A program made the translations under genes and the position numbers. 64,000 bases of DNA, taken from NCBI GenBank assembly GCA_021234155.1, contig JAJEKV010000040.1, forward strand, positions 4,491,229 to 4,555,228, in the 5' to 3' direction. This DNA is from Isoetes taiwanensis. Taxonomy: Eukaryota > Streptophyta > Lycopodiopsida > Isoetales > Isoetaceae. Below, piece after piece: positions 27,614 through 63,830 of the stretch; the first letter of the stretch is position 1; every line of letters begins with the position of its first letter. The notes under the pieces are model-generated. The model saw only the letters and a program-made list of their open reading frames with translations, did not search any database and was not told the DNA's origin.

Positions 27614-27890
27614 GGGACCAAATGCTTCGAACAGGTTCCTTGGGATGGGTTGCCTGTCAGGGGTCTCTTCGTCTCTGTTGGGCCTCCTATTTTGTTCGAC
27701 TGTTCTTTGTTCCCTATCGCCATGGCCTTATGGTTAGATTCATTTACTTTATTGTATTTATGTATTTGCCGAAATATTTGGAACCAAATACAATCAACAA
27801 AGTATTTAAATATTGGCAACAAAATATATTTATTATATACTATTTCAATTACAATGCTACCAGGATTTAAGAATCTAACTATTCTTGAAA

Positions 27891-29402
27891 TCACCGGTAG
27901 GATGGGTTATCCTCAAGAAATTTCTTAACTTGGGCCATTCCTACCGAGTGTCCCAAGTTCCTGAGGACATTGGTTGACGTCCCGCCCTGTAAGGCTTTCA
28001 CCAATTCCTCTACTCTGCGGTCGGAGGTGTAGGCCACGGTTACTGCCAATCTTCCCTGCCGTCTGTAGGGCACGGCGAAGTCGAAGATGTCAAGTGCCAT
28101 CGCTCTCTTGACTAAGACAGCATAGTCGACGTTTGCAGCTATTCGAGCATGCATGCCAAAGCCAGAGAGTGCAATGAGCATAAACACTCCTTCTTCGCCC
28201 CGGGGACTGAATTTGCGGTGTATTACCGCTATTCTACCATCCAGCAGCAGGGGAAGGTAGTACCTCAACGACCTGTCATTGTGTGTTGCTGATGACTTTC
28301 CACCTGCTTGGCCTCCTGCTCTATGCCTTCCGGCGTATTCATCGACCTCTACCTCAGAGATTTCTTGGTAGTCTCTAATTGTCGATGAAACTCGCCTGAC
28401 GTCGATTCCTGCTCCTCTTGTGCGAGGTGGTGTCGAGGAGCTCGGCATCAAGATGCTCGTGGTCTTGTCACGGATCCCCATCCGTTCTTGGATGGCATAG
28501 AACTCCTCCTCAGATGGCAGTTCTCGAGCTTCCATTATTTGCCTTATGTTGTTGTAGGCCTGGATGTCCGAAGTCGACTCCCCCGTATAGGTGTCGGCTT
28601 CTCTCACTTGAAGCGGGAAGTCTGAGACTCCCCAGACGATGAAGTCGTCCAAGTCTGGTTGCTGCCGCAGTTGGTAGCAACTCGTCAAGCCGGAACTCCC
28701 TCTCCCTGCATTCGGGGAGATTCTGGATATTGCTGAGGAGTAGGTACTCCTCACCGTCAATGATGATGGGGGCTAGGCTTGTGATGCCTAGCCCTAGTGG
28801 GGGAGCGACTCTGAGGGTCTGGCGGCTTCGCTCGAAGTTGGTAGCTCCTCTTCTGCTTGCCGTCGTTCTTCTTCTAGGTCGAGCTCCGTGTATTCTTCCT
28901 CATCCGATTCCTCTTCTTCTATTCTTCCTTCCTGCTCTCACTGGTACTGCAAAAGCATCTGGTCTGCTGCTGAGGATGCTATGGGGTCCACCTCCATCGG
29001 AGGAATAGAGGTTTCCCCCATTGGGTTTTTAGCACGGTGGGAGAGGAATATGACCAAGGCGGCGGTGTAGGAAAAATACTTGGTCCTGTCAACTGTCAGG
29101 ACCATGTAGTCTAGAAACCTCTGTGCCTTGTTGGTCAAATACTTGGCAATGTTCGGGACATCACCCAAGGCTGCTTGTAGGGATGGGCGGGGAATAAAAT
29201 AGCCCATGCAAGGGGGAAGCTGCACTAGGGACTGACCTACCCTAGCTTGGAACTCAGCCAAAACTCGCCTATATGCTGGCGTTGCGTGCAAGGTTGCTTG
29301 GACATCAATCTCTTTCTGGAAAAGCTGGAAGATGTTGTTGACGTTGGTCTCGGCTGCATGTGCACTGGCGCTGTACCATCGCCTGAAGTCAGCAGTTGCC
29401 AT
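27891..29402 (-). pseudogene. Unrecognised ~500-codon frame with four in-frame stops
   Basis: One minus-strand frame runs from ATG at 29402 to the stop at 27891. It is interrupted only by a TGA at about 28938 and three clustered TAGs at about 28770-28805. The first ~154 codons (MATADFRRWYSASAHAAETN...) are followed by a very acidic stretch (EEEESDEEEY), then about 300 codons rich in Arg, Ala and Leu ending LEDNPSYR. A TATA box lies 110 bp upstream. No family is recognised. It may be an extra ORF of the adjacent chromovirus, which lies downstream in the same orientation, a virus-derived insertion, or an independent gene. Two of the TAGs sit in a perfect 9-bp hairpin. Confidence 0.55.
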
Positions 29403-29511
29403 TGCTCTGGGGAAGGTGTGACTAGCAAACAGATGCAGGAGCGCCTATGGGAGCCGGGAAATCGCCTAAAGGGTCAAGAGCAGACTTGTAGAGTGTCAAG
29501 TGGGAAATGGG

Positions 29512-29525
29512 GGCCTATTTATAGA
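29512..29525 (-). promoter_or_regulatory. TATA box of the 29402 frame
   Basis: On the minus strand CTATAAATAGGCCCCC is a textbook plant TATA box about 110 bp before the ATG at 29402. That leaves room for a start site about 30 bp downstream of the box and a short leader. Confidence 0.65.
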
Positions 29526-29706
29526 CAAGGGAAAAACCCTAATTTTTGAATGACTTAGAAATTTATTGGGGTTGAGCAATTCTGACCTATTAGGAGGTCC
29601 AAATTTGGGTGATATGAGGGTCTAATTCTGCTGGACTCATCGAGTTAGGCAGAATTGACCTCTTATTTGGTCGGTTTGGAGCTGTTTTGGGCACTTTTGG
29701 GGCATG

Positions 29707-29773
29707 GTCTCACACGTTGCGCCCAGACCAAAAATGAACTTTTCATTTTCGCTCCTGGCGCGACGTGTGAGAC
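29707..29773. promoter_or_regulatory. Near-perfect inverted repeat upstream of the TATA box
   Basis: The arms GTCTCACACGTTGCGCC (29707-29723) and GGCGCGACGTGTGAGAC (29757-29773) match at 16 of 17 positions with a 33-bp spacer. They lie about 190-260 bp upstream of the TATA box and inside the H3-like/ORF spacer. Could bind a dimeric factor or act as an RNA hairpin. Function unknown. Confidence 0.6.
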
Positions 29774-29917
29774 ATCCTCTCAATTTTGTTCAAAATGTCA
29801 GTTTTAACTAAAACAAAAGCTGGAATTCAGTAATTTAATTCAATTAAGCAAGATTACACATGTTACTTTATTAAAAACTCTTTATATTAACAAAATTTTT
29901 CTATTATTTACAAAATT

Positions 29918-30355
29918 TTACTGTCTCTCTCCCTTGATGTAGCTGGCAAGGTGCATGTCCTACTTCATTAGTGTCATCCTCTTTGCATGGACTGTGCAGG
30001 CTGTCGAATCTTCAAAATGCTGCACTAGTTTTTGTTCTGTTGCCTCTTGCAGTGCCAGCAACATCTCATCCGTCACCCTCATCTCCGTGTTGTATTCTTG
30101 AATTACCTCTCGAACTAGTCGGGCGAACGGTGCACGGGGGATCAAGAACCCGAAGCTACGCTAAAAATGCTTGATCTCTCTCAGGGCTTTCCTCTCTCTC
30201 TCCTTTCTGCCAGTTCTCTTTTTGCCTGGTGGTCTAGGAGGCTTGGGCTTCTGTGGTGGCGGCTTCAGCGTCTTTTTCTTAGAGGGCACTCCACCTTCAA
30301 CAAATGTGACTTTATTCTCCTGATAGTAGGAGTTATAGGCCTTCCACTTCGCCAT
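29918..30355 (-). pseudogene. Divergent intronless histone H3-like gene with two in-frame TAG codons
   Basis: The frame of 145 codons begins at ATG 30355 and ends GERQ-TAA at 29918. The last 85 codons follow the H3 histone fold closely: ALREIKHF (alpha-N), LIPRAPFARLVREV (alpha-1), LLALQEATEQKLVQHFEDS (alpha-2), HAKRMTLMK and LASYIKGERQ (alpha-3 end). Loop 1 has the same length as canonical H3, without the insertion usual in CENH3. The N-terminal tail is unlike H3: Tyr/Asn-rich at first, then Lys/Pro-rich (KPPPQKPKPPRPPGKK). TAG stands at 30161-30163, where H3 has the conserved Gln of the alpha-N helix, and at 29960-29962, where H3 has Lys or CENP-A-like proteins Lys/Gln. Without introns it could be a retrocopy or part of a mobile unit. 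As it stands it cannot make a full histone. Confidence 0.8.
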
Positions 30356-32437: not shown

Positions 32438-32696
32438 CTCATGTGCTTCTCTATAAAGCACAAACATGCTATGTTCTTGAGGTTTTATAATTAATGATAA
32501 AACCGTCTCTTGCTTCAAAAAAAAAAAAAAAAAAAAAAAAAAAGGTCTCATGACAGTCCGGAAAGCTATGGCAGCAAGCACATTGGCAATTCAATAATAA
32601 ATCAGTCCTAAAGTGACCTGAATCGAATTTTGAGCTTAAAAACTTTCCAATAATACATACCTTTGATCAGATAAGAACAATGAAGTCTTCTTGGAA

Positions 32697-32780
32697 TTCG
32701 CATTTAATTAAATTGGGTCAAATCTCGAAATTTGGGACTCAGACTGAAATGGGACTCATACAAAAAAAAAAAAATTGAAT
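32697..32780 (+). repeat. Partial second copy of the 12.6-kb element's terminus
   Basis: TTCGCATTTAATTAAATTGG followed by GTCAAATCTCGAAATTTGGG, GACTCAGACTGAAATGGGAC and an A-run plus TTGAATTG matches, base for base with few changes, the inward sequence of the right terminus at 62.92 kb read on the minus strand. It is in the left-end orientation. Confidence 0.7.
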
Positions 32781-32849
32781 TGAATGCTTGAATAGAATTT
32801 TTTCTTAATAAAACAACAATAACATTTACAAAGAACAATCCGAGAAAAG

Positions 32850-33107
32850 AAGGGGAGACGGTGGAGAAAGAATGGTAGGAAGGAAGGGAAGATGGAAGGG
32901 AAGGAGGGACGCAGAGAGGGAGGCAAGGGAGGGGAGGGGGGGGGGAGGCAGGAGGGGAGAGAGGCAGGGAGGGAGGGAGGCACGAGAGAGAGGAGAGGGA
33001 TTTAGGGAAAGGGGCAAAAGTGGGGAGGGAGAGAAGGAGAAGATGGGGGGAGACTGGGCAAAGGGGGGAAGGGTTAGGGGCAAGGAGAGTTTGGAGGGGG
33101 AGATGAT
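32850..33107 (+). repeat. Polypurine (GGGA/GAGA) tract
   Basis: About 250 bp that are over 90% purine on the plus strand, including runs of G (GGGGAGGGGGGGGGGAGG) and GAGGGAGGGAGG. Such tracts can form triplex (H-) DNA or G-quadruplexes. The frames through it are compositional artefacts. Confidence 0.9.
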
Positions 33108-33244
33108 CTCCCATTCAAAAAATAAATAAAAACTAAATATTATAAATCAAAGAAAGAAATTAAATCTCATACTAAAAAATAAAAATTAAATATTATATAA
33201 AAAATGAAATAAATTATTATTAAATTAAATACTAGTATGCTCAA

Positions 33245-33270
33245 CCTTCTCGACTCATTAGTCGAGAAGG
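33245..33270. repeat. Outlying member of the TTCTCGACT palindrome family
   Basis: CCTTCTCGACT-CATT-AGTCGAGAAGG: an 11-bp perfect stem with centre CATT. The arms equal those of the palindromes at 51-58.5 kb. It lies 0.5 kb inside the partial element terminus at 32.7 kb. Confidence 0.85.
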
Positions 33271-33315
33271 CATAAGGCAATTTTCTTAGCAGGGGCATTC
33301 AATGTAGGGGATTTT

Positions 33316-34999: not shown

Positions 35000-35080
35000 G
35001 TTTAAAATGAAACGCACTAATTTGCTCCAAACGCACTTTAAAAGGAATCTTTGAAAGATTCCCTAAAATTCCCCAAAAAA
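35000..35080 (-). repeat. Repeat shared with 43.38-43.47 kb
   Basis: Read on the minus strand, AGGGAATCTTTC, AGTGCGTTTCATTTTAAAC and nearby blocks recur in the same order at 43.40-43.47 kb on the plus strand, where AAACGCACTT..AAGTGCGTTT forms a hairpin. Probably an old non-autonomous element. Confidence 0.5.
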
Positions 35081-35479
35081 GTTCCATTTTCTCGGTATAG
35101 TTGTGACATGTGTGACAATTTGAATATTTTAGGCACCATTTTTGAGGGGGGATTTGAACTCAGCTTCCATTATAAAAAATTTGATACCCTTTTTTGGCCC
35201 CCTAGTTTGCTTTGAGAAATAGTAACATTTTCAAGGACTAAAAAAAAATAGACATTGAAAAAAAACAACAAGTCTACTAGAGTGCCAAAAAGGTATTATA
35301 TTTAAAGTTTTTAAAATCATTACAGGATTATGAACAAAATTGTAAAAAATTCAACATATTTTGACATTGTCTCACTGAAGCTCACTCTTGCCTTATATAC
35401 ATGCTCTTATTTGCTCTGTCGGCTCGCTATAGACTTCTGTATACCGAGATGGCCATGTAAGTATCCAACCTTGACTTTT

Positions 35480-49259: not shown

Positions 49260-50270
49260 TTAATTTGGAAATATCCGGTGTGGCAGAAAAGTTTTTGGAT
49301 TTTTTTTTAAGTTGATTTTCTAAGATTGTTATTTTTTAGGTGGCCGGAATGTTTTACCGTTGTTCCAAAAATCGGGAGCAATGGTTTTCCAAGATATTCC
49401 AGGGTTTATGGGTGTTCTCTGCATGCAGGATGAATTCCTATCCTTCTATCCTTCCAGATAGGTGTCCAACTTTTGCCATGAGATTGAATCATGTATGTGG
49501 ATTTTTGTGGCGTTCAAATTGACGTTTATTTATGAGGCCCAAAATTTTTACAAGGATATCCATGCAGTGCCAGAATCTTTGCATCAACGGAGCAGTAGAG
49601 GATTGCCGTGTAGAGCAGTAGAGCAAAGGATCAGAGTATAGGTATTATCATTTTCTATCTTGCAATTTCGGCCACACCAGCTCTTAAGGTGCGTTTGAAC
49701 ATTTATAGACAGGTAAATCCGGCTCTCCTGCTCTCGAATCTTAGTTCTATGTTTCAACCATTTGTAGAGGCCCCAATATTCGATTTCTTCTTATCAAATT
49801 TGGTGGTTAAGATGCTTCGAATTAATTTCCTTTTCTGTCTACAAAGATTTTTGGATCCCTGTTCATCTGTATATGTATTCATCTGTCTTCAAAAACTGCA
49901 GGGTTTCCAGGGATACTCATCTTCAAAACTGCAGAGTATGCAAAATCAGCCAAAAACTCCTCAAGGTAGAATTGGAAACCATGTGCTGCTTAATCTAGAG
50001 GCTTAGTTCTATCGCCGATTGTTTGATTAGATGTGAAAGCCCAGTTCCATTATTTTTCTCTATCTTGATAACCTAAAAATTAAATAGTTTTGCTTGGTTA
50101 GATCTTTTTGGCTTGGCTTTTATCCGCAGCATAGGCGGCATGGATTCTATATGTCCCACCATGCTGAACGCGAGGATGGACAACCATTTATTAAGCAATG
50201 TTTGTGGACCAGGCCTGCCATTTCTTAGAGAAGAATTTAATTGTTGAAAGACTGCGGCTGCATCCTTAGC
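49260..50270. other. Non-coding stretch between Harbinger remnant and the large element
   Basis: No recognised gene; AT-rich. It ends at TACA, which flanks the 12.6-kb element. Confidence 0.4.
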
Positions 50271-50274
50271 TACA

Positions 50275-50299
50275 AAGTCGTATTTAATTAAAGTGGGAC
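50275..50299 (+). repeat. Left terminal inverted repeat
   Basis: Begins AAGTCGTATTTAATTAAAG and ends GGGAC; preceded by TACA. Exact reverse complement at 62897-62921. Confidence 0.7.
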
Positions 50300-50390
50300 T
50301 CATTCCATTCCCATTTTTTTTCGGAACCCTGTTAATTTACACGAAAAGGAGCACCCCGACCCGAGAACTATCATTAATTCAAATTTTTGT

Positions 50391-50912
50391 CTAGAACTCT
50401 GCATCGAAGCTTTCCTCCAGTTTTCCCTGGATAGCGAGTTGAGAACAAGAACAATGCAACTGAAACAAAGGAAATTCATTAAAGATTGAAACCAAAGCTC
50501 TAGTTGAAAAAGAATTTTTATTAATAAATTGAATAGGTACAATGTATTTTACATCGGACGCAGAGACCATGGCGGTCTTCTTTGTCACTCTGATTACATC
50601 ATCTTGGTAGGTGGTCCACCTTAGGGGATTAACTTGCGGCGCTTCTTCACGCCGACTGTAAGCCTTGGGGGCAACCTGAAGAGTGTGGAATGCCTCACGT
50701 GGAGGTGCCTCTGGAGCTACCGGCCGACCTGTCCACCCGACTTCTCCGCCGCCCCCCGACTTTTCATCGAATATGCTCCTTCCCCAACCTCCGTGGATGT
50801 TATGCAATGCTTGCAAGATGCTTTGAGCGGTCTCCGTGATGCCTCGAAGGGATCTTGCTGGTGTCGAATCGTGCCTCGAACCACCGGAGCAAGGAGAGTC
50901 TATGATTAACAA
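50391..50912 (-). other. Unassigned open frame next to the left end
   Basis: About 170 codons open on the minus strand without a good ATG at the start. It includes SLRGITETAQSILQALHNIH, a Gly-rich stretch, and TTYQDDVIRVTKKTAMVSAS. Composition is protein-like but no family is recognised. It lies downstream of the FCP1-type exon and its hairpin-rich 3' flank, so it could be an extra 3' exon or a separate gene of the element. Confidence 0.3.
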
Positions 50913-50984
50913 TTATGGTGCCATTAGTCAAAACGAAGAAAAGAATGTTGAAATCAAATTACAATGGAGAACATTCATTCCATA

Positions 50985-51305
50985 CAACCGCATCCAATGT
51001 CGTGGGAGTAGTGTCTTTTCGACTTCATGAAGTCGAGAAAGGCCGAAAAAAAAGTCAAAGTACAACCATTCTCATTAGAATATGGTTGCATCCAATCACA
51101 CACGGAAGCATACAAATGGTTTCATTAACGAGAGATATAAGGTGCCTTTTCGACTCAAAGTCGAGAAAGGCCTGTGAAACCCAATGTACAACCATTATCA
51201 TAATAGATTGTGGCTGCATCCGGTCCACACAAACAAACATACAAATGGTTTCATCAACGGGGACAAGCATGCCTTTTCGACTCTCATGAAGTCGAGAAAA
51301 AGCCA
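50985..51305 (-). repeat. Three ~127-bp tandem units, each with a CGACT hairpin, after the FCP1-type stop
   Basis: Hairpins at about 51018-51044 (CTTTTCGACT-TCATGA-AGTCGAGAAAG), 51149-51172 (centre CAA) and 51271-51301 (centre CTCATGA) repeat with blocks such as ACAACCAT, TGCATCC and ACAAATGGTTTCAT. They lie 100-420 bp downstream of the stop codon of the minus-strand gene, so they would fall in its 3' UTR or just beyond. Confidence 0.8.
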
Positions 51306-51404
51306 AATAAAACTCAATATACAAGTATATTTATTACAAAATGTAGTACATTTGTTCACGTTTGTTTACAATATTCACACAATTTGACTATCTGAAAGCA
51401 AAGG

Positions 51405-52251
51405 TCACTCTTCTTGATCACCATAATATTTGTCGTCCATAGCTTTCATGATCGCCTTGCTCTCTGGATCGGGTTCCGTGAGGCTCGGATAGTTCCTAAT
51501 CACATCGGCGACAAGAATGGCAAAAAGGGATTCCGCCAAGACAGGACAAAGTCCGAAAGACAACCACCTATCTGTCTCATACTCTTCAGGTCGATATGCC
51601 TTAGCAAGGATTGTATTTTGCGAGTTATGATAGCACTTGTAGGCGGAGTCGTCTATGATCAGCGTGTTGTGTTTGCCATAGTCCAGGAACTGCTCATAAA
51701 CCCTGTCCAGCTTTTTCACCATAATAGGCTTCCCCTTTGTGATGGCTGGATCGAGGTCTGACACATGCTCGACCCTTTCGTTTCCCCAAACAAACTTGAA
51801 CTTCAAAACTGGAAGGCCGAGAACACCAAGAACATTGACAATATTTTTCTTTGCCATACAAGACCATATGCCCACTTCGAATCCCCGTTCCAGGCACCAT
51901 TCAACAATTTCCTTTGCTCTATGCCTCGGATACACGATTTTATGCTTCGTTTTCGTCGGGATCTGCGAGGTGTTAAGCTCGGGCACGTCTTTATCGTGGT
52001 ATACTGCAGCTAATACTCCATTGACGTCAAATATTACAAGCTTGGTGGGACCAGCTGGATCCCAGTTGGAGTTTGGCTCTGACCATATTTCCGGTTCGTC
52101 GGGATCCATATGCGGGATCATTAATTTTTCAGGACCTTTCTGGCTGTCCTCAGTGTCTTGCTCTTTATTGTCTTTGGGGTGTACAGTGTCCTCAAGACGT
52201 GAACCGCCACTAGATATTGACAATAATCCGGAGTCGTTGCGTTCGATGTTC
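51405..52251 (-). CDS. FCP1/NLI-type HAD phosphatase domain (last exon of the composite gene)
   Basis: This exon follows a 115-bp intron with a good acceptor (ATTATTTCAG) and reads in phase from the methyltransferase-like exon. Residues of the exon: a charged linker, then the HAD motif I region TKLVIFDVNGVLAAVYHDKD, YPRHRAKEIVEWCLERGFEV, GIWSCMAKKNIVNVLGVLG (motif II region), FVWGNERVEHV, KLDRVYEQF and NTLIIDDSAYKCYHNSQNTI (DD of motif III/IV), ending KAMDDKYYGDQEE. FCP1-type enzymes dephosphorylate proteins such as the Pol II C-terminal tail. Motif I is DVNG rather than DxDGT, as in plant FCP1-like families with D-x-N-G, so activity is uncertain. The exon is intact. Confidence 0.8.
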
Positions 52252-52366
52252 CTGAAATAATGAGAGATGTCAGATAGGAAACGAGTTTTCTCGACTCGCG
52301 AGTCGAGAATGGAAAGGTTTCTCGACTCGCGAGTCGAGAAACATGGACAGAGCAAAGTGAACTCAC
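52252..52366 (-). other. 115-bp intron that is mostly two palindromes
   Basis: Donor GAG/GTGAGT and acceptor TTATTTCAG are consensus. Two perfect palindromes (52288-52309 and 52318-52341) fill the middle of the intron and would fold as adjacent hairpins, or pair with each other, in the pre-mRNA. Confidence 0.75.
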
Positions 52367-53975
52367 CTCAATTTCAGATTCTCAAGAATTTGTTCCGCAG
52401 TATTCTGGTCTAAACCCTCGAGATTCTCGTCTCCGTCATGTTTGTCTCCCTCGCTCTCAGGTTTGTCTTCATCATCATCGTCCTTACTGCTTCCATTTGT
52501 CTTCCTCCCTTTGAAATGCCCATGAAGCAGATCCAGGTATGACCGAATGGTTTCAACCATGTCCTTATTTCCAACCACGGATATAGGTTTCATTCCATAC
52601 AGCATAGCCCCCTGAGAGAACAGGCCATTCATGTACCACTCGCATACAATTTGATCTTCTTCGACCAAGCTGGTTATGAAGTACTTGATAACCCTTGGCC
52701 GGATAGGAATTCTATGTATAGGACTTGTCGCACCATCATTGCTGACTTTGTCCATCGATGGCACATCCTCCATAAATCTGCCGCCCTTCCGAGGTTCCAT
52801 CTGCTCTTGAGAAATCATGAACTTGTCCAGATAATGATGTTCGCTAGACCACCACTTGTCCAGGTCTACAGCCGATCTTGAAACCAAAACCAAAACTATA
52901 TTGGCAAAGCTTGGTGCCTTCGGCAAGCCAAGTCTACACTCATGTTCAAGCTCGTATATGGAGTACAAGATCTTGTTGGTGAAGTTAATATCAGCTGCCC
53001 ATTGGGAGACAGCAGTTGTCTGATTGCCCGGCATGCAAAACACAAGGAAACTGAAAGTATCCAGGTCGGTCATGTCCAGACACGTCTTGTACCACTGCTC
53101 TATGTCAGCTTTCTCATAAAAAAGGGTGGGGTCTTCAATCATATTGATGGCAAATAGTGCCACGGGACCAGGCCAGTTCCAGACCACCAAATCCCTTGTG
53201 TCCCAATGTTACCAGGAATGGGGGGGAGCTATCATCGGCCTTAAATGGGACCACCCCGAATCCAAGCTTCCTCTTCAGAATTGCCATAGCACGTTCAGGG
53301 AAGGGAAGGGTTTTGACGTTACGCTTTAGCTTGGTGTTGATGTAGGGTTGACATAGACGGTTCAATTCCTTCATGTCTTCCTCATCAAGGGCAGCCTTTT
53401 CCTTGTAATAATCAAAGTCATGGTATTCATTGGAAGCAACATTGCAGAACTCCGTGATGCCTTCCTCCAACGCACGCCGTCTCTTTAGGACTGTGGCATA
53501 ATCCTTTGCATCCTGCATTTTTGAGCTTCTACTTTTCCTTAGCAGGATTGTTCCATCCAGGATTCTGCCCTGTAGATCAAGCGTTTCCTTGTCGGTCAGG
53601 CCCTGTATCCTTTTCATAAATTGCCTGTCGAACAACTTTGGGTCCGGCCTGCATGGGAATTCTCCATTGCTGTCCTTCAGCTTGCCTCTTGTCCATTGAG
53701 CCCATATCTCAGTCCATTTCTCCCAGACCGCCTCAGTGCTAAGAATGAGGTCATATTGGTCTGAGAGAGACTCCCTGCCCTTTCTTGGTGTTCTCTTCTT
53801 CTTTTCCTCTTCATCCTCCCCCTCATCATCTTCCTGGCCTTCCAGCAGAACATATATGCAGAGTGACTCAAAGGTCTTCCACTTATCCGAGGGAGCTCTG
53901 TTTCCTTTAGGACGCTGAGGACAACCCAATGCTTTCCACTGTTGCCGAGCGTGTATGATCTGGTCAGGATATGGG
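52367..53975 (-). pseudogene. DNA-methyltransferase-like region of the composite gene, one frameshift
   Basis: The exon starts after an acceptor (CTGAATGCAG) and reads YPDQIIHARQQWKALGCPQR, a Lys/Glu-rich loop, and about 170 further codons; near 53180 a one-base shift moves the frame. It then has LVVWNWPGPVALFAINMIED, placed like the DPPY motif IV of beta-class N4/N6 methyltransferases, and much later RPRVIKYFITSLVEEDQIVC, EWYMNGLFSQGAMLYGMKPI and SVVGNKDMVETIRSYLDLLH. The latter resembles motifs X and I (KPxxLIxxFI..EGDxVLDPFxGSGTT..AxxLGRxxIGIE). DPPY is NWPG and the GxG loop is lost, so it should be catalytically dead. The C-terminal acidic tail leads to the intron before the phosphatase exon. 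The assignment rests on motif order and is inference. Confidence 0.5.
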
Positions 53976-54126
53976 CTGCATTCAGTAAATGTCCCAATGT
54001 TAGAGCATGAAAGTATCTACTAACATCCGAAGTAAACACTAAATAGGAGGATGCAGGGGGTTTCTCGACTCGCGAGTCGAGAATGCCCCCAAGGAGAGGA
54101 GAAAACATAGGAGAGTCGAGGCCAGA

Positions 54127-54256
54127 GCGAAAGCATCGCGCATTCCCAAATCTTTGCTTTCACGCCTCTTCGAACGATGCAACTTAGGATATAAACTAAG
54201 CGACATTGCTCGAAGAGGCGGGGAAAGAAAGATTGGGAAGGCTCGATGCATTTGCT
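54127..54256. repeat. Long imperfect foldback, copy 1
   Basis: Arms include GCATCGCGCATTCCCAAATC and CACGCCTCTTCGA against TCGAAGAGGCGGGG and GATTGGGAAGGCTCGATGC, with loop GATATAAA. The stem is about 55-60 bp with mismatches, the size and shape of a plant pre-miRNA. Confidence 0.75.
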
Positions 54257-54426
54257 TTTCAGCCATTAATCTCCAATGTTCTCTCTATTACACTGGGGTT
54301 TCTCGACTCGCGAGTCGAGAAAGTGAGAGGAGCACAAATAAGAAGATTCAAGGGACTTTCTCGACTCGCGAGTCGAGAGTACCCTCGGGAGAGGAGAGAA
54401 CATAGTACGAGAGTGAAGGCCAGAGT

Positions 54427-54552
54427 GAAAGCAACGCTCATTCCCAAATCCTTCCTTGCCGCGCCTCTTCGAACGATGCAACTTAGAATAGAAGCTAAGC
54501 GACATTGCCCGAAGAGGCGGGGGAAGAAAGGATGGGAAGGCTCGATGCTTTC
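54427..54552. repeat. Long imperfect foldback, copy 2
   Basis: About 85% like copy 1, with arm blocks GCGCCTCTTCGAACGATGCA and GCCCGAAGAGGCGGGGGAAG. Several arm changes keep pairing. Confidence 0.75.
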
Positions 54553-54852
54553 AGTCGTCGACCATTAATCTCGAATGTTCTTTATCAGCCGGGGGTTTCG
54601 ACTTCCTGAAGTGAGAAAGTCCCTTGAATGTTTACTTTTCTTTTTACTTCTATGGGTTTTTCGACTTCGCGAGTCGAGAAAGCTCTACATCCTTTGACTT
54701 CTCAGTGTTTACGGCTTTCGACTTCGCGGTCGAGAAACCCCGATGAAAAACGAAATGATATGATGTTAGGGCTTTCTGGGCGAAGTCGGAAGCCACCGAA
54801 TCGAAGAATTCTTTACATTATGTAGGCGGCACTCATTTTGCTATTGTGTTAC

Positions 54853-55613
54853 AGCGTTGGCTAATGCTGGCCCATTTCGATTCTTTGGCGTCTCATTTGC
54901 AAGAACTCGCACTCGCTTGGCATATCTATCCTTGATCCTTTGCGGCACCTCCTTCTCCGGGTCGCAATACTTGCTTGCCCTCACCGAATGCTGACCGTCT
55001 ACTACGAGAACCGGATGTCTTTTCCCTTGGTCTTCCTCGGTTTCATTTGAACAACTCACGGTCGATCTGGCTGAAAGGTATGACATCCACGGGCATTGGA
55101 TGCGCAGCGGGATGTCGCACCATCGGGTTCGGGAATCTCCGGCATGTGTCTTTGGATTAAATTCCCAATGGTTGAACAAGACGGCATCTCCCGTGCAGAC
55201 CTTCAGGCGTCTGATGTCCAAGAGTAGCTTGTGTGCTATTCCCAATGGATAATACTGAGCCAGCTGCTCCATTTTCTGTGCCCCTCTCTGTAAAATCCTG
55301 ATCTGCTCATCTGGATCCATTAATTGGGAGTCGACCATATCTTCATCTGCTTCATCATCTGATTCCTCCCGTGTGGTGTCATCTTCTCCATCTTTGGTCT
55401 TGTCCGGACTTTTTTCTTTATGAACCACAATCCCCCACAACTTCCCTCCCCACTGCTGAGTGTTGTAGAGTCTTCAGCACAGTGGAGATGAAGCTCCCCG
55501 TGTTGAACAGTTTTTTCCTGACTATGGAAATCTCCATTCCAAGCTCCCTGGATGTTAGGGTTCCGGCCTCCTTCATCCCTTCCAGATCCTTCCACCCAAG
55601 GTTCTGACAATTT
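54853..55613 (-). pseudogene. ParB/DGQHR-like region of the composite gene, one frameshift
   Basis: The frame begins NLGWKDLEGMKEAGTLTSRE and LGMEISIVRKKLFNTGSFIS, then a one-base shift near 55460 leads to QWGGKLWGIVVHKEKSPDK, an acidic linker (DDTTREESDDEADED), QIRILQRGAQKMEQLAQYYP, VCTGDAVLFNHWEF and HPVLVVDGQHSVRASKYCDP. The VVDGQHSVRASKY block resembles the D-G-x-H-R signature of ParB-like/DGQHR domains, which in prokaryotic mobile DNA often precede a DNA methyltransferase. The order ParB-like then methyltransferase-like here fits that. Function in a plant element is unknown; other readings of the short motif are possible. Confidence 0.45.
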
Positions 55614-55659
55614 AAAGGCGCCGGCCTTTTGTCGGTGCCCTTTGCCTTAATTTGAAACT

Positions 55660-56084
55660 GATAATTTTTTCGTGTGGTAGAACTTACTCTTCTGGCAGTC
55701 TTCCACATGAAATGTTATATGCTTCAAATCTGGCGCTGAGACGGAGAGCACAACACCGACCTTCTTGTACTTGTCTCCGGAGCTCTTCTTGTCCCTTTGG
55801 TGGAGAAACAGATCTTTCTCCTTCCCACTTGCTGATACCTCGACATACCACCAAGAATCATTTGGTGTGTCAAAAGCTCTGTCTCCGGTCCCTCGATGGC
55901 GAAGAACGGAGTTCGCCGGTGATCACTAGTGAGTCCGCGGTGAATGCTGCAAGAGCAAAGGATGGATCAGTAAAGGTATTGCGACCAAAGAAAAACCTCA
56001 GAGCTCACCTGGCGCTGTTTTTTCTTCTTCTTTGCCGCTAGAACCGACACGCTTTCGGCCTCGCTTCTTGGACGGAGTCGCCAT
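55660..56084 (-). pseudogene. 5' exons of the composite gene
   Basis: The ATG at 56084 opens MATPSKKRGRKRVGSSGKEE, a basic nuclear-localisation/AT-hook-like start, and the exon ends at 56009 with donor CAG/GTGAGC. A second block at about 55905-55688 reads DTPNDSWWYVEVSASGKEKD, LFLHQRDKKSSGDKYKKVGV and LKHITFHVEDCQK and ends at donor AGA/GTAAGT. The acceptor and phase between the two are unclear: in the frame of the second block TAG and TGA lie near 55930. So the start region is either spliced in a way I did not resolve or decayed. The gene would run leftward to 51405. Confidence 0.5.
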
Positions 56085-56393
56085 GTCTGTATGCCCCCGC
56101 ATCTTCTTCCTGCTCGAACCCTTGTGTAAATTAAGTTTCCTCCGCGCGTTGTAGGTTTTAGGACTGCACGTAAAAAAGATCGGGCGTGTTCTTTAATTTG
56201 AATTTAAGGACATGCAATCATTTAAGAAAAAAAGCGGGCTAAGGGTCCAGCACGGAAGCTTTTAGCCCGCCCAAACACCATTTCGAATTTGAATGACATC
56301 CAGGGACTTAGTGAGCGGAGTGTAGATTATCTTCACTGCGGCATTGGCGACTTTGAGTTGGGAGGCGAGCATCGACTGTAAGCGACTTCCGGA
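56085..56393. promoter_or_regulatory. 310-bp divergent intergenic region
   Basis: Separates the minus-strand ATG (56084) from the plus-strand ATG (56394), so it probably holds both promoters. It contains an inverted repeat GCGGGCTAA...TTAGCCCGC (about 56234-56271). No clear TATA box seen for either side. Confidence 0.45.
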
Positions 56394-56696
56394 ATGGCGC
56401 CGCGACGCGGTAAGCTCCTCACAGCGCCTTGCTCTGTGTATTTTTTCTGACCGCGCGTCTTATTGCAAGCAGTTGATTTGATCGATGAGCACGGAGCTAA
56501 GGTAGGAAGCGGAGAGGAGCTGCCAGACACGGGAACTCTACACTGCTGCGCCATGGAACGGGGATACACGAGAATCGCATTGATACAAGTATTAGATGCG
56601 AATGCACTCTTGATGAGACCGACAGAAGAAGCAAAGACTCTCGGTGAGGCTGCGGGATCTGTGATACAGTGGCCCAAGGAATTACTGCGTGAAGAG
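56394..56696 (+). CDS. Plus-strand gene start with DUF8039-like exon
   Basis: Exon 1, 56394-56409 (ATG-Ala-Pro-Arg-Arg), ends at donor G/GTAAGC. Exon 2, 56473-56696, starts in phase after TTGCAAGCAG and ends at GAAGAG/GTGAGT. It reads VDLIDEHGAKVGSGEELPDT, GTLHCCAMERGYTRIALIQV, LDANALLMRPTEEAKTLGEA and AGSVIQWPKELLREE. The pattern H..., V.V..V.D...LP.PTEE..TLGEA.G..I.WP matches the DUF8039 domain seen in plant transposon proteins. No further exon is clear in the palindrome array downstream, so the gene may splice across 3 kb to the transposase-like exon at 59806 or be truncated. Confidence 0.55.
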
Positions 56697-57006
56697 GTGA
56701 GTTTCAGAGATGCCTGTGTTATTTTGCGTGTAGAACATGCCGTCTGTGTTTAAATCATGGAACTGCTCATAAGCTCGACGGGTTTATCGTTTCCTTGTCC
56801 AGCATTTTTCAGCTTCGAGAGATGATTTACTCTCTGGGTTGAGAGATGCTCGGCAAGGAAACAATGGATCGGGGGTAAACTTGAACAGTTCCGTTTTAGG
56901 TGTATTTTTTCTTGGAATGTTTTCTTGGAATGTTGTATATAGATCAGGCTAGGTCTAAGGCCCAGGAGATGCGGTTCAAATGCATCCTCCTGTGGTTAGT
57001 CGGAGA

Positions 57007-58150
57007 GGCCTCTACCCAGTCGGAACCACTCCTCTTCGCAATATTCGAGGAAGATGGTTCGAAGGAGAGTGGCTCAGACAGGCTAGAGGCACTTGGGACT
57101 AAAAACAGGAGAATACAAAGTGCTTAGTTGTAGAGACCTGTGCTAAGACCCAAAGGCCTGCAGACAGTCAGGGCCACTTCCCTTCGCAATATTCGAGCAA
57201 TATAGTTTGAAGGAGAGTGGCTCAGACTGTCTGCAGGCACCTGGAGAATGCAGGTGGGATCGGGCTAAGGGATTCTCGACTTGCGAGTCGAGAATGCAAG
57301 CCTTGGCTTCCTCTCTGCATTCTCGACTCGCAAGTCGAGAATGCGTTAGCCATCGAGAACTCCAGATGGTACACATGTGGTGCTGGCTGGTTAAGGCATT
57401 CCCGACTCGCGAGTCGAGAATGCAGACAGCAAGCTCTGTGGTTTCCCTGTGGTTAGTTGTAGAGGCCTCCACCCAGTCCGAGCCCCTCCCCTTCGCAATA
57501 TTCGACGAAGATGGTTCGAAGGAGAGTGGCTCTGACTGGGTCGAGGCCACTGCGACCATACACAGGAGAATTGGCTGGCTAAGGGATTCTCGACTTGCGA
57601 GTCGAGAATGCAAGTGTTGGCTTCCTGTCTACATTCTCGACTCGCAAGTCGAGAATGCCTTAGCCATCGAGAACTCCAGATAGTACACATGGAGTGCCGG
57701 CTGGATAAGGCATTCTCGACTCGCGAGCTGAGAATGCAGACAACAAGCTCCGTGGTTTCCCTGTGGTTAGTAGTAGAGGTCTCCACCCAGTCCGAGCCCA
57801 TCCCCTTCGCAATATTCGACGAAGATGGTTCGAAGGAGACGGTCTCTGACTGGGTAGAGGCCACTGCGACCATACACAGGAGAATTGGCTTGCTAAGAGT
57901 TGGCCTGCAGACAGTCAAAACCACTTCCCTTTGCAATATCCGAGCAAGATAGTTTGAAGGAAAGTGGTTAAAACTGTCTGCAGGCACCTGTAGAATGCAC
58001 TAGAGCCTGCGTTTTCTCGACTCACGAGTCGAGAAAGCAGCCAGCACCTCTGTGGTTAGTCGCTGAGGCCTCCACCCAGTCGGAGCCAGTCCTCTTCGCA
58101 ATATTCGATGATGGTTCGAAGGAGAGTGGCTCGGACTGGGTGGAGGCACC
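57007..58150. repeat. Six ~83-bp foldbacks with conserved CAATATTCGA loop
   Basis: Positions: 57007-57090, 57156-57238, 57464-57547, 57779-57861, 57902-57984 and 58067-58147. Arms are of two types: GCCTCCACCCAGTC...GACTGGGTGGAGGC and GGCCTGCAGACAGTC...GACTGTCTGCAGGC. Inner arms CCACTCTCCTTCG/CGAAGGAGAGTGG and loop CAATATTCGA(C)GAAGATGGTT are shared. Paired changes in opposite arms are visible. Confidence 0.85.
57240..57862. repeat. 314-bp tandem duplication of foldback plus three palindromes
   Basis: The palindromes at 57272, 57319 and 57398 recur at 57586, 57633 and 57712 with a 314-bp period, together with the linking DNA (GCCATCGAGAACTCCAGAT, CTGTGGTTTCCCTGTGGTTA) and the following foldback. 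Confidence 0.85.
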
Positions 58151-58455
58151 TGCGACCGCACAAAGGGCCATTGACAGGGTATCACATTCTCGACTCACGA
58201 GTCGAGAAGGCTGTAGCAGGCTGGAAAAGAATGTGAAGGCTGCAGCAGGCTGGAAAAGAATGTGAAGACGTTGGGTAGCTGTGTGCAATCTCGACTCGCG
58301 AGTCAAGAATTCCTCAACCAGCCAACAATCCAGAGTGTACATTCCCTCTTCTCGCCTCGCGAGTCGAGAAATTCTCGACTCGCGAGTCGAGAAGAAGGCC
58401 TGTACTTCCTGGATTGTTGGCAAGCTGAGGTATTCTCAACTCACCAGTCGAGAAA
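57272..58455. repeat. Dense cluster of TTCTCGACT palindromes
   Basis: Members at 57272-57295 (centre TGCG), 57319-57342 (CGCA), 57398-57421 (CGCG, one arm change), 57586-57609, 57633-57656, 57712-57735 (decayed), 58013-58036 (CACG), 58187-58208 (CACG), 58288-58310, 58349-58370, 58372-58393 (CGCG) and 58433-58455 (decayed). The two central ones at 58.35-58.39 kb lie in the middle of a larger ~130-bp inverted repeat (CCAACAATCCAG...CTGGATTGTTGG). Confidence 0.9.
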
Positions 58456-58823
58456 GCCGGGATCCCTTCTGCATCTCTCCTGCAGTGGAGGATATGCTGT
58501 TAGAATTGCAGATTCTGTGAAGCAATTCCTATTCTTAGTTGATAGTTAGGAAAAAAGATTCCTAGTTATGTTCTGTTATGAAACATTCATAGACAGTTTA
58601 GCAATTTCTTTTGTGAATCATTCTTAGTAATGTTCTGTTAATGCTCTGCAATATCTTACTTCCTAACACCTGTCTCTGATGATTTCTATCTCGGTTGCTT
58701 GCTACTACTCTTACCACTATTCTCACTTGTGCCTGTACAATGTATTCAATTCAACAACAACTAAGAAAAAGATAACAAAAACAGAAAACAATACAAAAGG
58801 AAAACAGATAACAGAGAGATTAA

Positions 58824-58906
58824 TGAGATTAATGAGAAAACAGAGAACAGTGGAGACAAATGAGATTAATGAGAAAACAGAGAACAGTAGAGACAAATGA
58901 GATTAA
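58824..58906. repeat. ~37-bp tandem repeat
   Basis: AATGAGAAAACAGAGAACAG followed by T(G/A)GAGACAAATGAGATT occurs twice with a third partial copy. Confidence 0.85.
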
Positions 58907-58941
58907 AAAAGGGTATGATATTACAAAAACATACCTGGAAG

Positions 58942-59015
58942 ATTTGCTGGATGAGGAGGAAGCTCCCGTGTTCGATTCCATGTGGCTACAGGCGTTCGCA
59001 AAGCGTGAATAAGGA
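58942..59015 (-). other. Isolated minus-strand exon candidate
   Basis: Acceptor-like ACAATTTCCAG and donor CCAG/GTATGT bound an open stretch reading PTNPYSRFANACSHMESNTG then a Ser-rich end. No family recognised; it may belong to an uncharacterised gene of the large element. Confidence 0.25.
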
Positions 59016-59534
59016 TTTGTCGGGCTGGAAATTGTATCAGGCAATAATAAGAGCCTCTAACAACAGAATATAAGTAAAAATGCAGTAAAGGACTTACAGA
59101 AAACTAAAAAGAAGCAGTAAAAAAAGCCTAAAACTTACAGAGAAGAACCTCACTTTCTTCTCAGGCAGTAACGCCCGCTCGAACACTCAATCTGCGCGAG
59201 AACTTCGGCGCTGGATGCGTCCTGATCCGTCGACCAAGCTGCTGTCATAAGATGACCTTGGAATGGCTCGGTTCGCTCGATCGCCTTATGGGAAAACCGG
59301 GCGCTTAAGGAAAACACAGAGCGCGAAGAGTGATCAGAGAAAACAGGGGAGGAAGAATGGTCGGGGGGGAGAGGAAGAGGGTGCAGTTAATTCTGGCTGC
59401 ACCCTCGAACCTCGTAAAAGTGCAATAATAAGGATCTGTCACGTGTGGGCCATGCCCTCCATGACGTGGCAGTGCGGGTTGCTGACATGGCCATCCTATC
59501 AGCCTCTGAGGAGGCGCCACGTGGCCATGACAAG

Positions 59535-59795
59535 ATATTAAAGGTTATGTTATATGTTTATATATGTTATGTTATGTTGTATATTTAATATGGTTATATA
59601 GTTTCAATGGTTATATATGGTTTTAATGTTTACATATGGTTTACATTGAATATGGTTGTATGGTTTAATATGGTTATATGATTTTGGTGGTTATATACGG
59701 TTGTATGGTTTATATTTAATATGTTTGTATGGTTTTATATGGTTTATATGGTCATATTTGTGGTGTTTGGGGCTATATGGTTTTAATGTGTGCTT
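59535..59795. repeat. TATATGGTT-type low-complexity repeat
   Basis: Degenerate tandem units of ATATGGTTTATATGG and TATGTTATGTTA; it ends at the acceptor of the transposase-like exon. Confidence 0.8.
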
Positions 59796-59805
59796 TTTCA
59801 TTCAG

Positions 59806-62725
59806 GGAGCATGTGAGATGAGTAAAATGGAGCCAAGGAAGTCCAGCACAGGCCATTGCCCTAGGCTCCAATGGAGGAAGATGGGTTGCTTGTTGTTGCA
59901 CCCTTGCAACGAGACGGTATTTGCAGAGGGCATAATAACTGCAGTTGATCCTTTTGATAGTGTGAATGATGAAAGGCTGGGAGATGATCATCTTGGAGTT
60001 GGCATTGTGAAGCTTCTTATCGAAGTTGATACAATCATGTCGGGGAAGCTCTAGTGATTGCATTGTGTGCTCGGGTTCTTGGAGTCCCAAAGTCGAGTTG
60101 AGATGGCCAATTACATATATTACACACAAGAATGGTGATAGTCTGGAATCCCCTACTCAACTACATACCCCAAGACCCACTCAAGGCCATGTGGAAGATT
60201 TGGTGGTCGATGAGCATCCTTTGATCACTAGGAAGAGGCGTTATGTTTTTTCATAAAAGGCGACCAAAGGGTGCCCAAGAGGCCTAGAAGTGACAAATAT
60301 TTAGAAAGGATGGAAAGTATGGCCCCAATCAAAGAAAACCTAGAGGCAATTAGGGGACAAGAGTGTTGCAACCTAGATCATGCACAGTGCAGTACAGTGT
60401 GGATGATCTCGTGCAGATAAGGCCCCAATACATTGGACTGACTTCAAAAGATAGGATTAATTTCATCTACTCCTTGTGTAAGAATTCCGCTATGATGAAA
60501 ACACGGAAGGCTACTATATCAATTGAGGGGCATGAGGGTATGTATGAGAGCATTGAGATGGATTCTTGGGGTGAGCAAGTCTTCATTCTCTGATCTTTGG
60601 GAGCAGGTTAGAAAAAGGGCACAGTTTGTTCCAACATGGTAATGCACTCACTTTGAAACCTAGAGCAAATACTCTCAAGGCCATTGCGGTCTTGAGAGCT
60701 TTTTGTGAGATACATGTCTCAATCTATGCCCCACAAGTCGAAGGTGAACGAGCACGGTGTGTGAGTGGTGCAAAGGGTGTTGCCACAACACTATATCCAA
60801 AAGGAGTGCCTTAAAGAGGTCAACTCCATCCTAGAAACTACTGGAGGTAGGCCTCTTTCTCAATCACATTTCAGCAAGTTATGGAGCACTCACTTCTCAG
60901 ACGTGAGTGTCTTGCAACACATGCCATTCTCAAAGTGCAACACTTGCATTCAACTCAAGGATACACTTGCATCAACTGCAATAGAGAAAGAAAGAATGGC
61001 AATTAGGGAGCAATTTGCAGATCACCAAAGGGACCAAATATCATGTAGACAATTGTATTGGCAGTGGAGAACATTTTCTGAGATGCAGTCGGACAAATTT
61101 TTGTGTATAATTCATGATAAGATGGACCAACACAAGACTTTCTTGCCAAAGCTAGATCCTTTACCCAAGCGTTGTCAAAACGCTTTTCAGATGAAAGTAA
61201 GTCTGGCGGGTGTCTTAACACATGGTCATGGAACTGGAACATATGGTCATTTTGTGCTTGATCTATGGAGGGATGATCCAAACTTCCATGTGAGCTCTAT
61301 TTTCAAGTGCTTGAGAACACTAGAGAAAGGATCGATAGAAGGGAGGAGGTATTCCCCTTCAGCACCCATTTTTGAGGCTTTGATGGATGATCAACCGCTT
61401 TGTTACCAAAGGTAGATAAAAAAGCTCACATCCAAGGTGTCTAGTGAATCAAGGAGGACTTCGGATGATTTCCCCTTACTCGAGAAACCACTGCCTGAGG
61501 AGCTATGTGTTCAATTGGACAACTGTTGGAAAGAAAACAAGAATAGATGGATGTTTGGGGCAATGTCATACTTGACAGCAGTGGGAGTATTCAAAGTTGT
61601 GAAAGTGGGATTCATGATGGTTGGGCATACGCATGATGATATAGATGGATTCTTTGGAACTTTCTCCACCAAGCTCAAGAGAGAAAACGTGACTAGTCTC
61701 CCTGAACTAATGGATGTGTTTGAGAGCTGCATTGACCCCAACCCAATGGCTTTCTTGATGGATGAGGTTGCAGATTGGAAATCATTTGTAGAGGGATACT
61801 TGCTAGATGGTAAGGACCGGGTTTGAGGACACATAAAGCCACTTCGGTTCAAGTTTTGGGTTAGGGATGGAATACCAATCATGCAATATAAGTGGAGACC
61901 AGGTGACAAGTTGTGGATGCTGTATATAAGGAATCGAGTTGTGGCAAAGGGTGTCTTTCTTTGGTGAAGTTCTCATTCTAAAGGGCAGCCAAAACCACTA
62001 CCTCCCTTCAAGACTTGTCAAAGACTCTAGCCAACTAGTGAAGGGCATCAAGGATTACATAACGACCGAGATGATGTTGAAATGGAAAGCACACCTCCAC
62101 TCTTAAGAAAAATCAAATGGACTCCCTAATCAAGTCTTTGGGAGAAAGTTGTGACATGCTTAGAAACCGAACAACCATGTGGGAGGAAGCTAAGAGACGG
62201 GTTCTTGCCAGAGTCAAGATGGGAGGGTTCTCAAGGAGCAAGCACGTCTAAGAACGTTCACTTGGGTCCTAACAAGGGTTCCAAGTGGTTTGTGGGAAGT
62301 AAGGCCTCAAAGCCGAAGTGGTTTGATCTTCCTGAGTGGGATCCCTTTGAGGACATCAATGAAGGATACTTTGTGCTAGTAAGGCGATGATGAGGACCGG
62401 TCCAATATGGTTAGGGGTGGCACTCTCTGATGTAACCACCACTATGCCTGATGGAGAGGAGTTGCGTCCTCGATTCCAAATTCAATATTGGGAGCCCATT
62501 GGGAGACACAAGAAGGGCAACTTGAAGGAGCAATATACCGACTGCTGGGAGAAGAAGTGGAGGGCAAATTATGCTGATCCTCAAAGGAGGGAATTGGTGG
62601 AGTGTGTGGTATGGTCATATCCAGGTTCTCACACTGCAAAGGACAACACACACAAGATCCCAAAAAGGGAGATGGACAAAGCCATGAGCAACCTCCATGC
62701 TATATCATTGTATGAGGGTAGATAA
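59806..62725 (+). pseudogene. DUF7869-like transposase-type gene with several stops and frameshifts
   Basis: After an acceptor (TTTCATTCAG) the N-terminal part has a DUF8039-like stretch (GCLLLHPCNETVFAEGIITA). Several stops lie between 60.05 and 60.77 kb. The main block (about 60780-61826, one frame with TAG at 61413) reads HMPFSKCNTCIQLKDTLAST, ADHQRDQISCRQLYWQWRTF, CIIHDKMDQHKTFLPKLDPL, AGVLTHGHGTGTYGHFVLDL, VQLDNCWKENKNRWMFGAMS and FMMVGHTHDDIDGFFGTFST. C-x2-C, D-M-D-Q, Q-x-D-N-x5-N-K-N and GHTHxDID are the signature of the DUF7869 family, which has an RNase H-like transposase look. A TGA at 61824 and frameshifts near 61960 and 62390 precede C-terminal blocks (WFDLPEWDPFEDINEGYFVL; RFQIQYWEPIGRHKKGNLKE). 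It is probably the former transposase of the 50.27-62.92 kb element, now dead here. Confidence 0.75.
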
Positions 62726-62896
62726 TATTGAGAAGCTTGAAAACTTTCTCAACTAGTGGTTTGTAAAATTTATGAGGAAAACAAGTAACCCAATTCTTTG
62801 TGTGTGATCTGTAATTCTATTCAATCAATCAATTCAAAAAAATTTTTTATGGGGTGTGAGTCCCATTTTCAGTCCGAGTCCCAAAATTCAAGATTT

Positions 62897-62921
62897 GTCC
62901 CACTTTAATTAAATACGACTT
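62897..62921 (-). repeat. Right terminal inverted repeat
   Basis: Exact reverse complement of 50275-50299, followed by TACA at 62922-62925. Just inside it, GAGTCCCA-type units repeat three times. Confidence 0.7.
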
Positions 62922-63281
62922 TACAACAATGATATTTTCCAGGTCCGGCATTAGTTTATGTTGATTGAAGCATATATAGGTTGGCATCATTGCATTCAAC
63001 TAACTATTGGATAATGAGAGGAAAACATGCTGAGTTACTCAGGGTAAGATTAGGGATTTTCTCCAACACTTTCAGATGATAAAGAACAGATGTATTTGTT
63101 TGGTCTCAGGCCCTAAGGGTGATGTTAATACATTATTGCTTTCTTTCTTTCCCTCTTTGAGTTGTCTTGACTCACTGGAAACGTGTAGTTACTAGAAGTT
63201 TTCTTACTGACCAATCACCCATGGAATTTGCTCTTCTAAAGTATAGTCACATAACAAAGAACTGCTGTTATGTCATTGCAG

Positions 63282-63830
63282 ATTTCTACCTGGAAGGCGC
63301 ATAATAGTAAAGTAAAACTTCTTCTGCTATTCGGCCAGCGTCTCTTAAGTGTTGACACAACATGGCATCTTTGCATATGGCAAATGGGGGATGCAGATTC
63401 TAGGGAGGCTGTGAAGCCTTTAGCTCAGATGCAGCTCCGAAATTCATTTACACCAACATGCATAGTTCATCCAGACACTTACCGTGATAAGGTACATGCT
63501 ATTCTTTTCTTCATCGCAGTATTTATCACTGGACATAAAACAAGTCACTTTTTGAGGCATATGCAAGTGACTGGATTTCTCAGGTGCTTATTTGTAGTGA
63601 TGAAGGACCATTGCAACTATGGAATATAAAATCACAACAGTTGGTTCATGAGTTTAAAGGCTGGGATACTTCAATCCACACGTGTTTCATCTCCTGCATT
63701 GGATGTCATTGCTGTTGGTTGTTTGGATGGGAAAATACGTGTTCATAATATTCTATATGATGAAACGATTGTAACTTTTACTCACACAAACAGAGGGCAC
63801 ATGTGAATCCAGTTTCTTTTAGGACGGGTA
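63282..63830 (+). pseudogene. WDR36/UTP21-like WD-repeat protein fragment
   Basis: Exon 63282-63492 (acceptor TCATTGCAG, donor AAG/GTACAT) reads ISTWKAHNSKVKLLLLFGQR, LLSVDTTWHLCIWQMGDADS and FTPTCIVHPDTYRDK. The next exon from 63583 (acceptor TTTCTCAG) reads SDEGPLQLWNIKSQQLVHEF and KGWDTSI, then a frameshift, then VSSPALDVIAVGCLDGKIRV and HNILYDETIVTFTHTNRG, with a TGA soon after. These blocks are the N-terminal WD40 part of UTP21/WDR36, a U3 snoRNP subunit needed for 18S rRNA processing in the nucleolus. The part after 63.8 kb looks rearranged. A decayed fragment, sitting 350 bp from the large element's right end. Confidence 0.8.

Follow-up and report, generated by a model that had tools for sequence, protein, structure and literature searches.

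A multicopy family of large transposons with a DUF7869 gene in the lycophyte Isoetes taiwanensis

Introduction

In CACTA (En/Spm) transposons subterminal repeats are bound by a second element-encoded protein, in VANDAL elements of the Mutator (MULE) group the second protein is the anti-silencing VANC and short motifs are concentrated in the non-coding DNA of the element, and the KDZ transposons of fungi are large and carry extra nuclear enzymes beside their transposase. Here we describe a large element at positions 50275-62921 of a 64,000-nucleotide stretch of the Isoetes taiwanensis genome (assembly GCA_021234155.1, contig JAJEKV010000040.1, 4,491,229-4,555,228; hereafter the window). This DNA is a true transposon and one member of a multicopy family; it carries two divergent genes, a transposase gene with a DUF7869 domain on the plus strand and an accessory gene on the minus strand, together with a set of palindromes.

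Among the described groups that resemble it is Sola, for which a review gives 4-bp target-site duplications, a transposase of the Asp-Asp-Asp (DDD) type, terminal inverted repeats (TIRs) of 11-1124 bp and a length of mostly 2-9 kb, with some members above 15 kb; the same review reports Sola from a moss and describes it as not common in flowering plants (PMC10741241), and it has been reported from Physcomitrella and Capsicum (PMC9033089). For other groups the review gives duplications of 4-6 bp, TIRs of 40-270 bp, TG...CA ends and an occurrence in plants for Ginger, CACTA/CACTG termini, a 3-bp duplication and a usual length above 10 kb for complete CACTA elements, and duplications of 8 bp for hAT, 7-12 bp for Mutator (MULE) and TA for Tc1/mariner (PMC10741241), while Kolobok and piggyBac are described as duplicating TTAA (PMC9587614). 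The values for Sola (in moss) and Ginger show that a 4-bp duplication, held to be unusual for plant DNA transposons when the element was first predicted from the sequence alone, has precedents in plants.

Results

Boundaries and copies of the element

The DNA at 50275-62921 is very probably a DNA transposon of the cut-and-paste kind that has two genes and is present here in a degenerate copy. It is bounded by two exact 25-bp TIRs which begin AAGTCG and have TACA outside both, in agreement with the original prediction:

50271-50274, no strand: target-site duplication, left copy (TACA), from flank comparison
50275-50299, plus strand: left 25-bp TIR, from a repeat search; 39 of 39 non-self scored left-end matches start at 50268-50275
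62897-62921, minus strand: right 25-bp TIR, from a repeat search; 39 of 39 non-self scored right-end matches end at 62921-62932
62922-62925, no strand: target-site duplication, right copy (TACA), from flank comparison

The ends were searched for in the assembly of 1,658,258,908 bases in 1110 contigs, where 40 of 1806 first-look candidates were scored for the left end (a query of 181 bases) and 40 of 1562 for the right end, these candidate numbers not being copy numbers. All non-self matches to the left end started at window 50268-50275, with 95-99% identity, and all those to the right end stopped at window 62921-62932. The original prediction had proposed such a search for further copies, and it bore out the two TIRs as true ends of the element, common to 39 other scored copies on either side.

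For copy comparison 20 stretches of 10 kb were taken from left ends. Long matches through the accessory gene and beyond were present in nine (L009, L012, L014, L015, L016, L017, L019, L021 and L028), shorter matches to the window element in L013 and L022, left-terminal matches alone in L010, L011 and L020, and short derivatives in the remaining six (L018 and L023-L027). Six stretches were extended rightward and the right end was found in five, that of L019 already lying within its 10 kb, and both ends were read in seven large copies, window included. Six of these (again counting the window) are colinear and 12,592-13,232 bp long, while L019 is 9,552 bp long and lacks the equivalent of window 56246-59959; the large copies are 90.2-95.2% identical to one another, with a Kimura two-parameter distance of 0.050-0.106. 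The same gene set recurs between these end pairs, as all six further large copies carry accessory-gene and transposase sequence. The short derivatives lack both genes, and their similarity to the window element is confined to approximately 223-236 bases at the left end and 64-131 bases at the right.

It is exceedingly improbable that the structure arose by chance or as an assembly artefact in which unrelated repeats were joined in one contig. Such an origin would suit the broken frames and the many small insertions and deletions (indels) between large copies (114, 148 and 242 events in three pairs), some of which, in repeats, may be sequencing errors because the published assembly is described as built from Nanopore reads and polished with Illumina data (PMC8566536). 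Against it, the same structure is present in the six other large copies, which sit on five other contigs and of which five have the 4-bp duplication, and common ends, order and duplications in other copies rule this explanation out.

Two further observations concern relatives of the element. At 32695-33286 the window itself holds, in inverted orientation, the right end of an older, related short element, approximately 79% identical to the right part of L023 and L024, and in L026 a second, inverted element copy begins at about position 8032, some 4.2 kb from the first.

Target-site duplications and related empty sites

An exact 4-bp duplication, and no longer match, was observed in 16 of the 18 copies read at both ends, L023 having 5 bp and L015 none, while left and right flanks taken from different copies as a control gave a 4-bp match in 4 of the 306 pairings. 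The duplicated words (TACA, AAAT, TCTC, TTAT, ATAC, TAAA, GAAA, CTTA, AACA, CAAT, TCTT, AGGT, ACCA and AGAA) vary, and there is therefore no fixed target word. The 18 copies include further ones from a set of ten that was added, L043, L045, L047, L051 and L055 being left out as the right end was absent from the retrieved part. Also left out were L009 (right end absent from the retrieved DNA), L010, L011, L013, L016, L021 and L022 (right ends not retrieved), L020, whose seeming right end proved to be a left end in inverted orientation, and the second element within L026.

Two copies are inserted in repeats that have an unoccupied relative, and both relatives read across the junction. The flanks of L014, joined by one TCTC, align to L008 at 71% identity with no gap at the junction, and those of L027 align to window 35057-35366 at 72% identity with a single 1-base gap at the junction. 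Taken with the other copies and their duplications, these two related empty sites strongly support the predicted large mobile unit with a 4-bp duplication.

At the insertion site in the window, a 91-amino acid minus-strand open frame spans the rejoined flanks (approximately 50073-50274 and 62926-62999) and may be a host exon interrupted by the element; its Pfam match to cupin is weak and below the cut-off (E 0.013), and for this reason the frame is not relied on.

The transposase gene

On homology grounds the plus-strand gene is one transposase gene, with a DUF8039-like front and a DUF7869 core, for which the following features were assigned:

56394-56409, plus strand: exon 1, proposed by hand, with a GT donor next to it
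56473-56696, plus strand: exon 2, DUF8039-like through the homologue P0003; assigned by homology, with hand-called edges
56697-59805, plus strand: proposed intron of 3.1 kb, with 12 of 18 palindromes (at 57275-58452) and a tandem and inverted repeat array
59806-62725, plus strand: main coding part, with several frame breaks in the window copy; further introns are possible
61107-61127, plus strand: IIHDKMD, first proposed catalytic Asp
61170-61328, plus strand: first part of DUF7869 (Pfam E 0.00025, alone below the gathering score)
61482-61802, plus strand: main part of DUF7869 (Pfam E 8.8e-36)
61509-61526, plus strand: VQLDNC, second proposed catalytic Asp
61623-61646, plus strand: GHTHDDID, third proposed catalytic acidic residue

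The three catalytic residues are proposed from an alignment of relatives and a model of one relative. The match to DUF7869 (PF25273) scores 123.7 bits against a gathering score of 26, which confirms the DUF7869 label of the original prediction. The prediction had also included the start of a separate, divergent DUF8039-like gene. Window exon 2 and the exon-3 start of copy L017 are colinear with residues 61-216 of P0003, a transposase homologue and a single protein of 847 amino acids; the stretch is thus homologous to the front of P0003, as the front of the transposase gene, and a separate gene was ruled out. Precomputed annotation of P0003 gives both PF26133 (DUF8039) and PF25273, while a local Pfam scan of P0003 (E<=10) lists DUF7869 alone of these two, and two window or copy pieces of the DUF8039-like region match no Pfam family at E<=10. 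The DUF8039 label is consequently weak.

The predicted model of a relative, of moderate confidence, has an integrase-like RNase H core in which three conserved Asp are located, suggesting that the DUF7869 core may catalyse transposition with an Asp-Asp-Asp triad. A sequence search of solved structures with the transposase alignment gave no credible match, in viral contigs four stretches matched a pattern of P0005 and none was confirmed as a relative, and a full-text literature search found no paper naming DUF7869. No long intact transposase frame, such as the prediction had suggested looking for in paralogues, is present in any of the seven large copies, where the longest plus-strand stop-to-stop frame of that region is 385 amino acids (L014) as compared to 847 for P0003.

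The accessory gene

Between the start of the accessory gene and the proposed start of the transposase gene lie approximately 0.3 kb; the accessory gene comprises the following parts:

51405-56084, minus strand: whole gene, divergent from the transposase gene, with broken frames in the window copy; from open reading frames, the ATG (56084) and exon edges being set by hand; colinear in large copies
51534-52043, minus strand: FCP1/NIF domain (PF03031, Pfam E 5.3e-9), with acid motif DVNG
52364-54013, minus strand: middle part, earlier labelled methyltransferase-like, without profile support
54841-55473, minus strand: part earlier labelled ParB-like, without profile support; partly very divergent between copies

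The original prediction had described this gene as regulatory-looking cargo composed of ParB-like, methyltransferase-like and FCP1-type phosphatase parts. That a second gene belongs to the element was borne out by all six other large copies, in which it has the same position and orientation, but of its supposed parts the FCP1-type domain alone was recognised. This domain, in the last exon, scores 36.4 bits against a gathering score of 21.8. The canonical catalytic motif of FCP1/NIF proteins is DxD, which the DVNG of the window copy does not match, the first Asp being retained and the second acidic residue being replaced by Asn. No ParB profile (with a read-through of the broken stretch as query) and no methyltransferase profile was found at E<=10 in Pfam or NCBIfam. 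For residues 420-1170 of the long accessory query no protein homologue was found at E<=0.001 among proteins of 0.55-1.75 times the query length, a search that leaves room for shorter relatives; searches of solved structures by sequence gave nothing credible for the middle region, nor for the FCP1 part at E<=0.01, and fold prediction of 52363-53205 alone was unusable (pLDDT 33).

We consider it rather unlikely that the accessory gene is a passenger which plays no part in transposition, whether a captured host gene or several host gene pieces fused together. FCP1/NIF is a cellular phosphatase-type domain, in keeping with such an origin, and a further fragment of cellular appearance is present in two of the short derivatives, L018 and L025. 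The codon-position signal is also weak, with a slight third-position excess overall (101, 128 and 146 at the three positions; p 0.023) and none in the FCP1 exon (25, 33 and 28), and the accessory exons change no more slowly than the non-coding left end at 50400-50800 (0.05-0.10 minor alleles per site). The constant place and orientation of the gene in the six other large copies argue against a passenger, and the same holds for the minor alleles per site, which are fewer in the majority of its exons (0.08-0.24) than they are in two introns (0.20-0.32), with the exception of 54850-55330 (0.43-0.66, from few sites). The region at 54.6-55.3 kb, which takes in part of the gene and the adjoining intron, is unusually divergent, its mean difference from the window being 0.12-0.27 per 100-bp bin. 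The accessory protein is more likely a standing, element-specific component, one that may act in transposition or silencing.

The fragment in L018 is an internal frame of 233 amino acids that resembles an acyltransferase (PF01553, E 0.00017, slightly below the gathering score) and for which a sequence search of solved structures gave nothing credible; it is partly present in L025 too, and is possibly a captured piece of a host gene.

Palindromes of the element

A motif scan identified two sets of palindromes:

52290-58452, no strand: span of 18 palindromes CTCGACTNNNNAGTCGAG with <=2 mismatches, outside the modelled exons
51020-51301, no strand: three palindromes in left subterminal DNA, whose arms are the same (CGACT..AGTCG) and whose centre varies

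With <=2 mismatches, the 24-bp palindrome CTCGACTNNNNAGTCGAG occurs 19 times in the window as compared to 0.10 expected, and 18 of these sites lie within the element. None falls in the modelled exons, although these cover 54% of the element; 12 lie in the long transposase intron and six in two introns of the accessory gene. In each of the six other large copies 6-17 were counted, and large copies also have versions with an altered centre approximately 0.7-1.2 kb inside their left end (one to three sites at 909-1182 in the six others). The six gene-less short derivatives retain one to five palindromes each, and in five derivatives one of these lies 0.5-0.6 kb short of the right end; none was found in the 39.5 kb flanking these derivatives. 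The nineteenth palindrome of the window (33249) lies inside the diverged right end of the related short element at 32695-33286.

It is most likely that the palindromes are cis-acting sites for an element-encoded protein. A lesser, if serious, possibility is that they are a structural by-product, a repeat amplified in introns and bound by none of the element's own proteins: 12 of the 18 are concentrated in the 3.1-kb intron, in a single tandem and inverted array that could have multiplied them by duplication alone, and large copies have no version of the palindrome within 1.3 kb of their right ends. Their presence in two introns of the accessory gene and, as altered-centre versions, in the left subterminal DNA accords less well with a by-product, and so does their retention, near the right end in most cases, by derivatives that lack both genes.

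Other features of the window

Beyond the right end of the element, the plus strand at 63280-63720 resembles by eye the exons of a UTP21/WDR36-like WD40 protein. The region at 23000-30000 stands out from most of the window in that, over much of its span, GC content is approximately 0.48-0.50 and AT skew is strongly negative (down to -0.28).

Discussion

The family to which the window element belongs, with its ends, its 4-bp insertion mark, its gene order and, in the DNA examined, the distribution of its palindromes, was compared with those groups whose defining features are given in the literature cited above. By these descriptions hAT, Mutator, CACTA, Tc1/mariner, Kolobok/piggyBac and Ginger all differ from the element in one or more of the features examined and are set apart. 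None of the 18 copies has the 8-bp match of hAT, the flanks are varied 4-mers rather than the TA of Tc1/mariner, and TTAA, the mark of Kolobok and piggyBac, is absent among the 18. CACTA elements are likewise large, but the element lacks CACTA termini and 3-bp duplications, and no CACTA transposase profile was listed for four relatives. The duplications of MULEs are 7-12 bp long as compared to a longest exact match of 5 bp here, no MULE profile was listed for the relatives and no VANC-type domain was recognised in the element. Ginger shares the integrase-like core (here modelled for a relative), duplications of 4-6 bp and occurrence in plants, but differs in its longer TIRs (40-270 bp as compared to 25 bp) and its TG...CA ends.

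For Sola, we give slightly better than even chances to the element being an ordinary Sola member, DUF7869 being the Pfam name for a Sola transposase and the size and second gene alone being new. The 4-bp duplications and the proposed DDD core agree with Sola as reviewed, the 25-bp TIRs and the lengths of the large copies (12.6-13.2 kb, or 9.6 kb for L019) fall within the ranges given, and Sola has been reported from a moss (PMC10741241) and from Physcomitrella and Capsicum (PMC9033089). The likeness is one of described features, kinship to the Sola1, Sola2 or Sola3 transposases in sequence being a possibility, no result ties DUF7869 to Sola by name, and the account in the review, as far as we draw on it, includes no two-gene form of 12.6 kb carrying element-specific palindromes (PMC10741241). 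On described features alone the element is not filed as Sola here. Sola membership, a passenger gene and by-product palindromes are not mutually exclusive.

The most likely reading is that of a cut-and-paste DDD element whose duplication mark resembles that of Sola and whose accessory gene product may recognise the palindromes. A DDE/D-type transposase with a DUF8039-like front and a DUF7869 core would cut at the 25-bp ends and make target cuts with a 4-bp stagger, giving rise to the 4-bp duplications, and the short gene-less derivatives would be moved in trans. The palindromes in introns and subterminal DNA may be bound by an element-encoded protein, for which the product of the divergent minus-strand gene, as a standing element-specific accessory protein, is a candidate, and such binding could serve assembly of the ends or the control or protection of element expression. 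A further-reaching proposal, which we regard as improbable, treats DUF7869 as the hallmark of a plant DNA transposon superfamily not described before. Its autonomous members would encode a dedicated second protein for the element-specific palindromes of introns and subterminal DNA, and these sites would serve as a code, for self-recognition or against silencing, that the gene-less derivatives moved in trans have in common with them.

The present analysis ties DUF7869, a domain of unknown function in Pfam, to a delimited transposon family for which ends, a mark at the insertion site and short derivatives are described and an integrase-like core is predicted. If the family is Sola, that superfamily would be extended to large two-gene forms in a lycophyte. 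If the accessory protein binds the palindromes of the element, this would add one more to the plant transposons that encode a sequence-specific regulator of their own, here in a lineage of early vascular plants.

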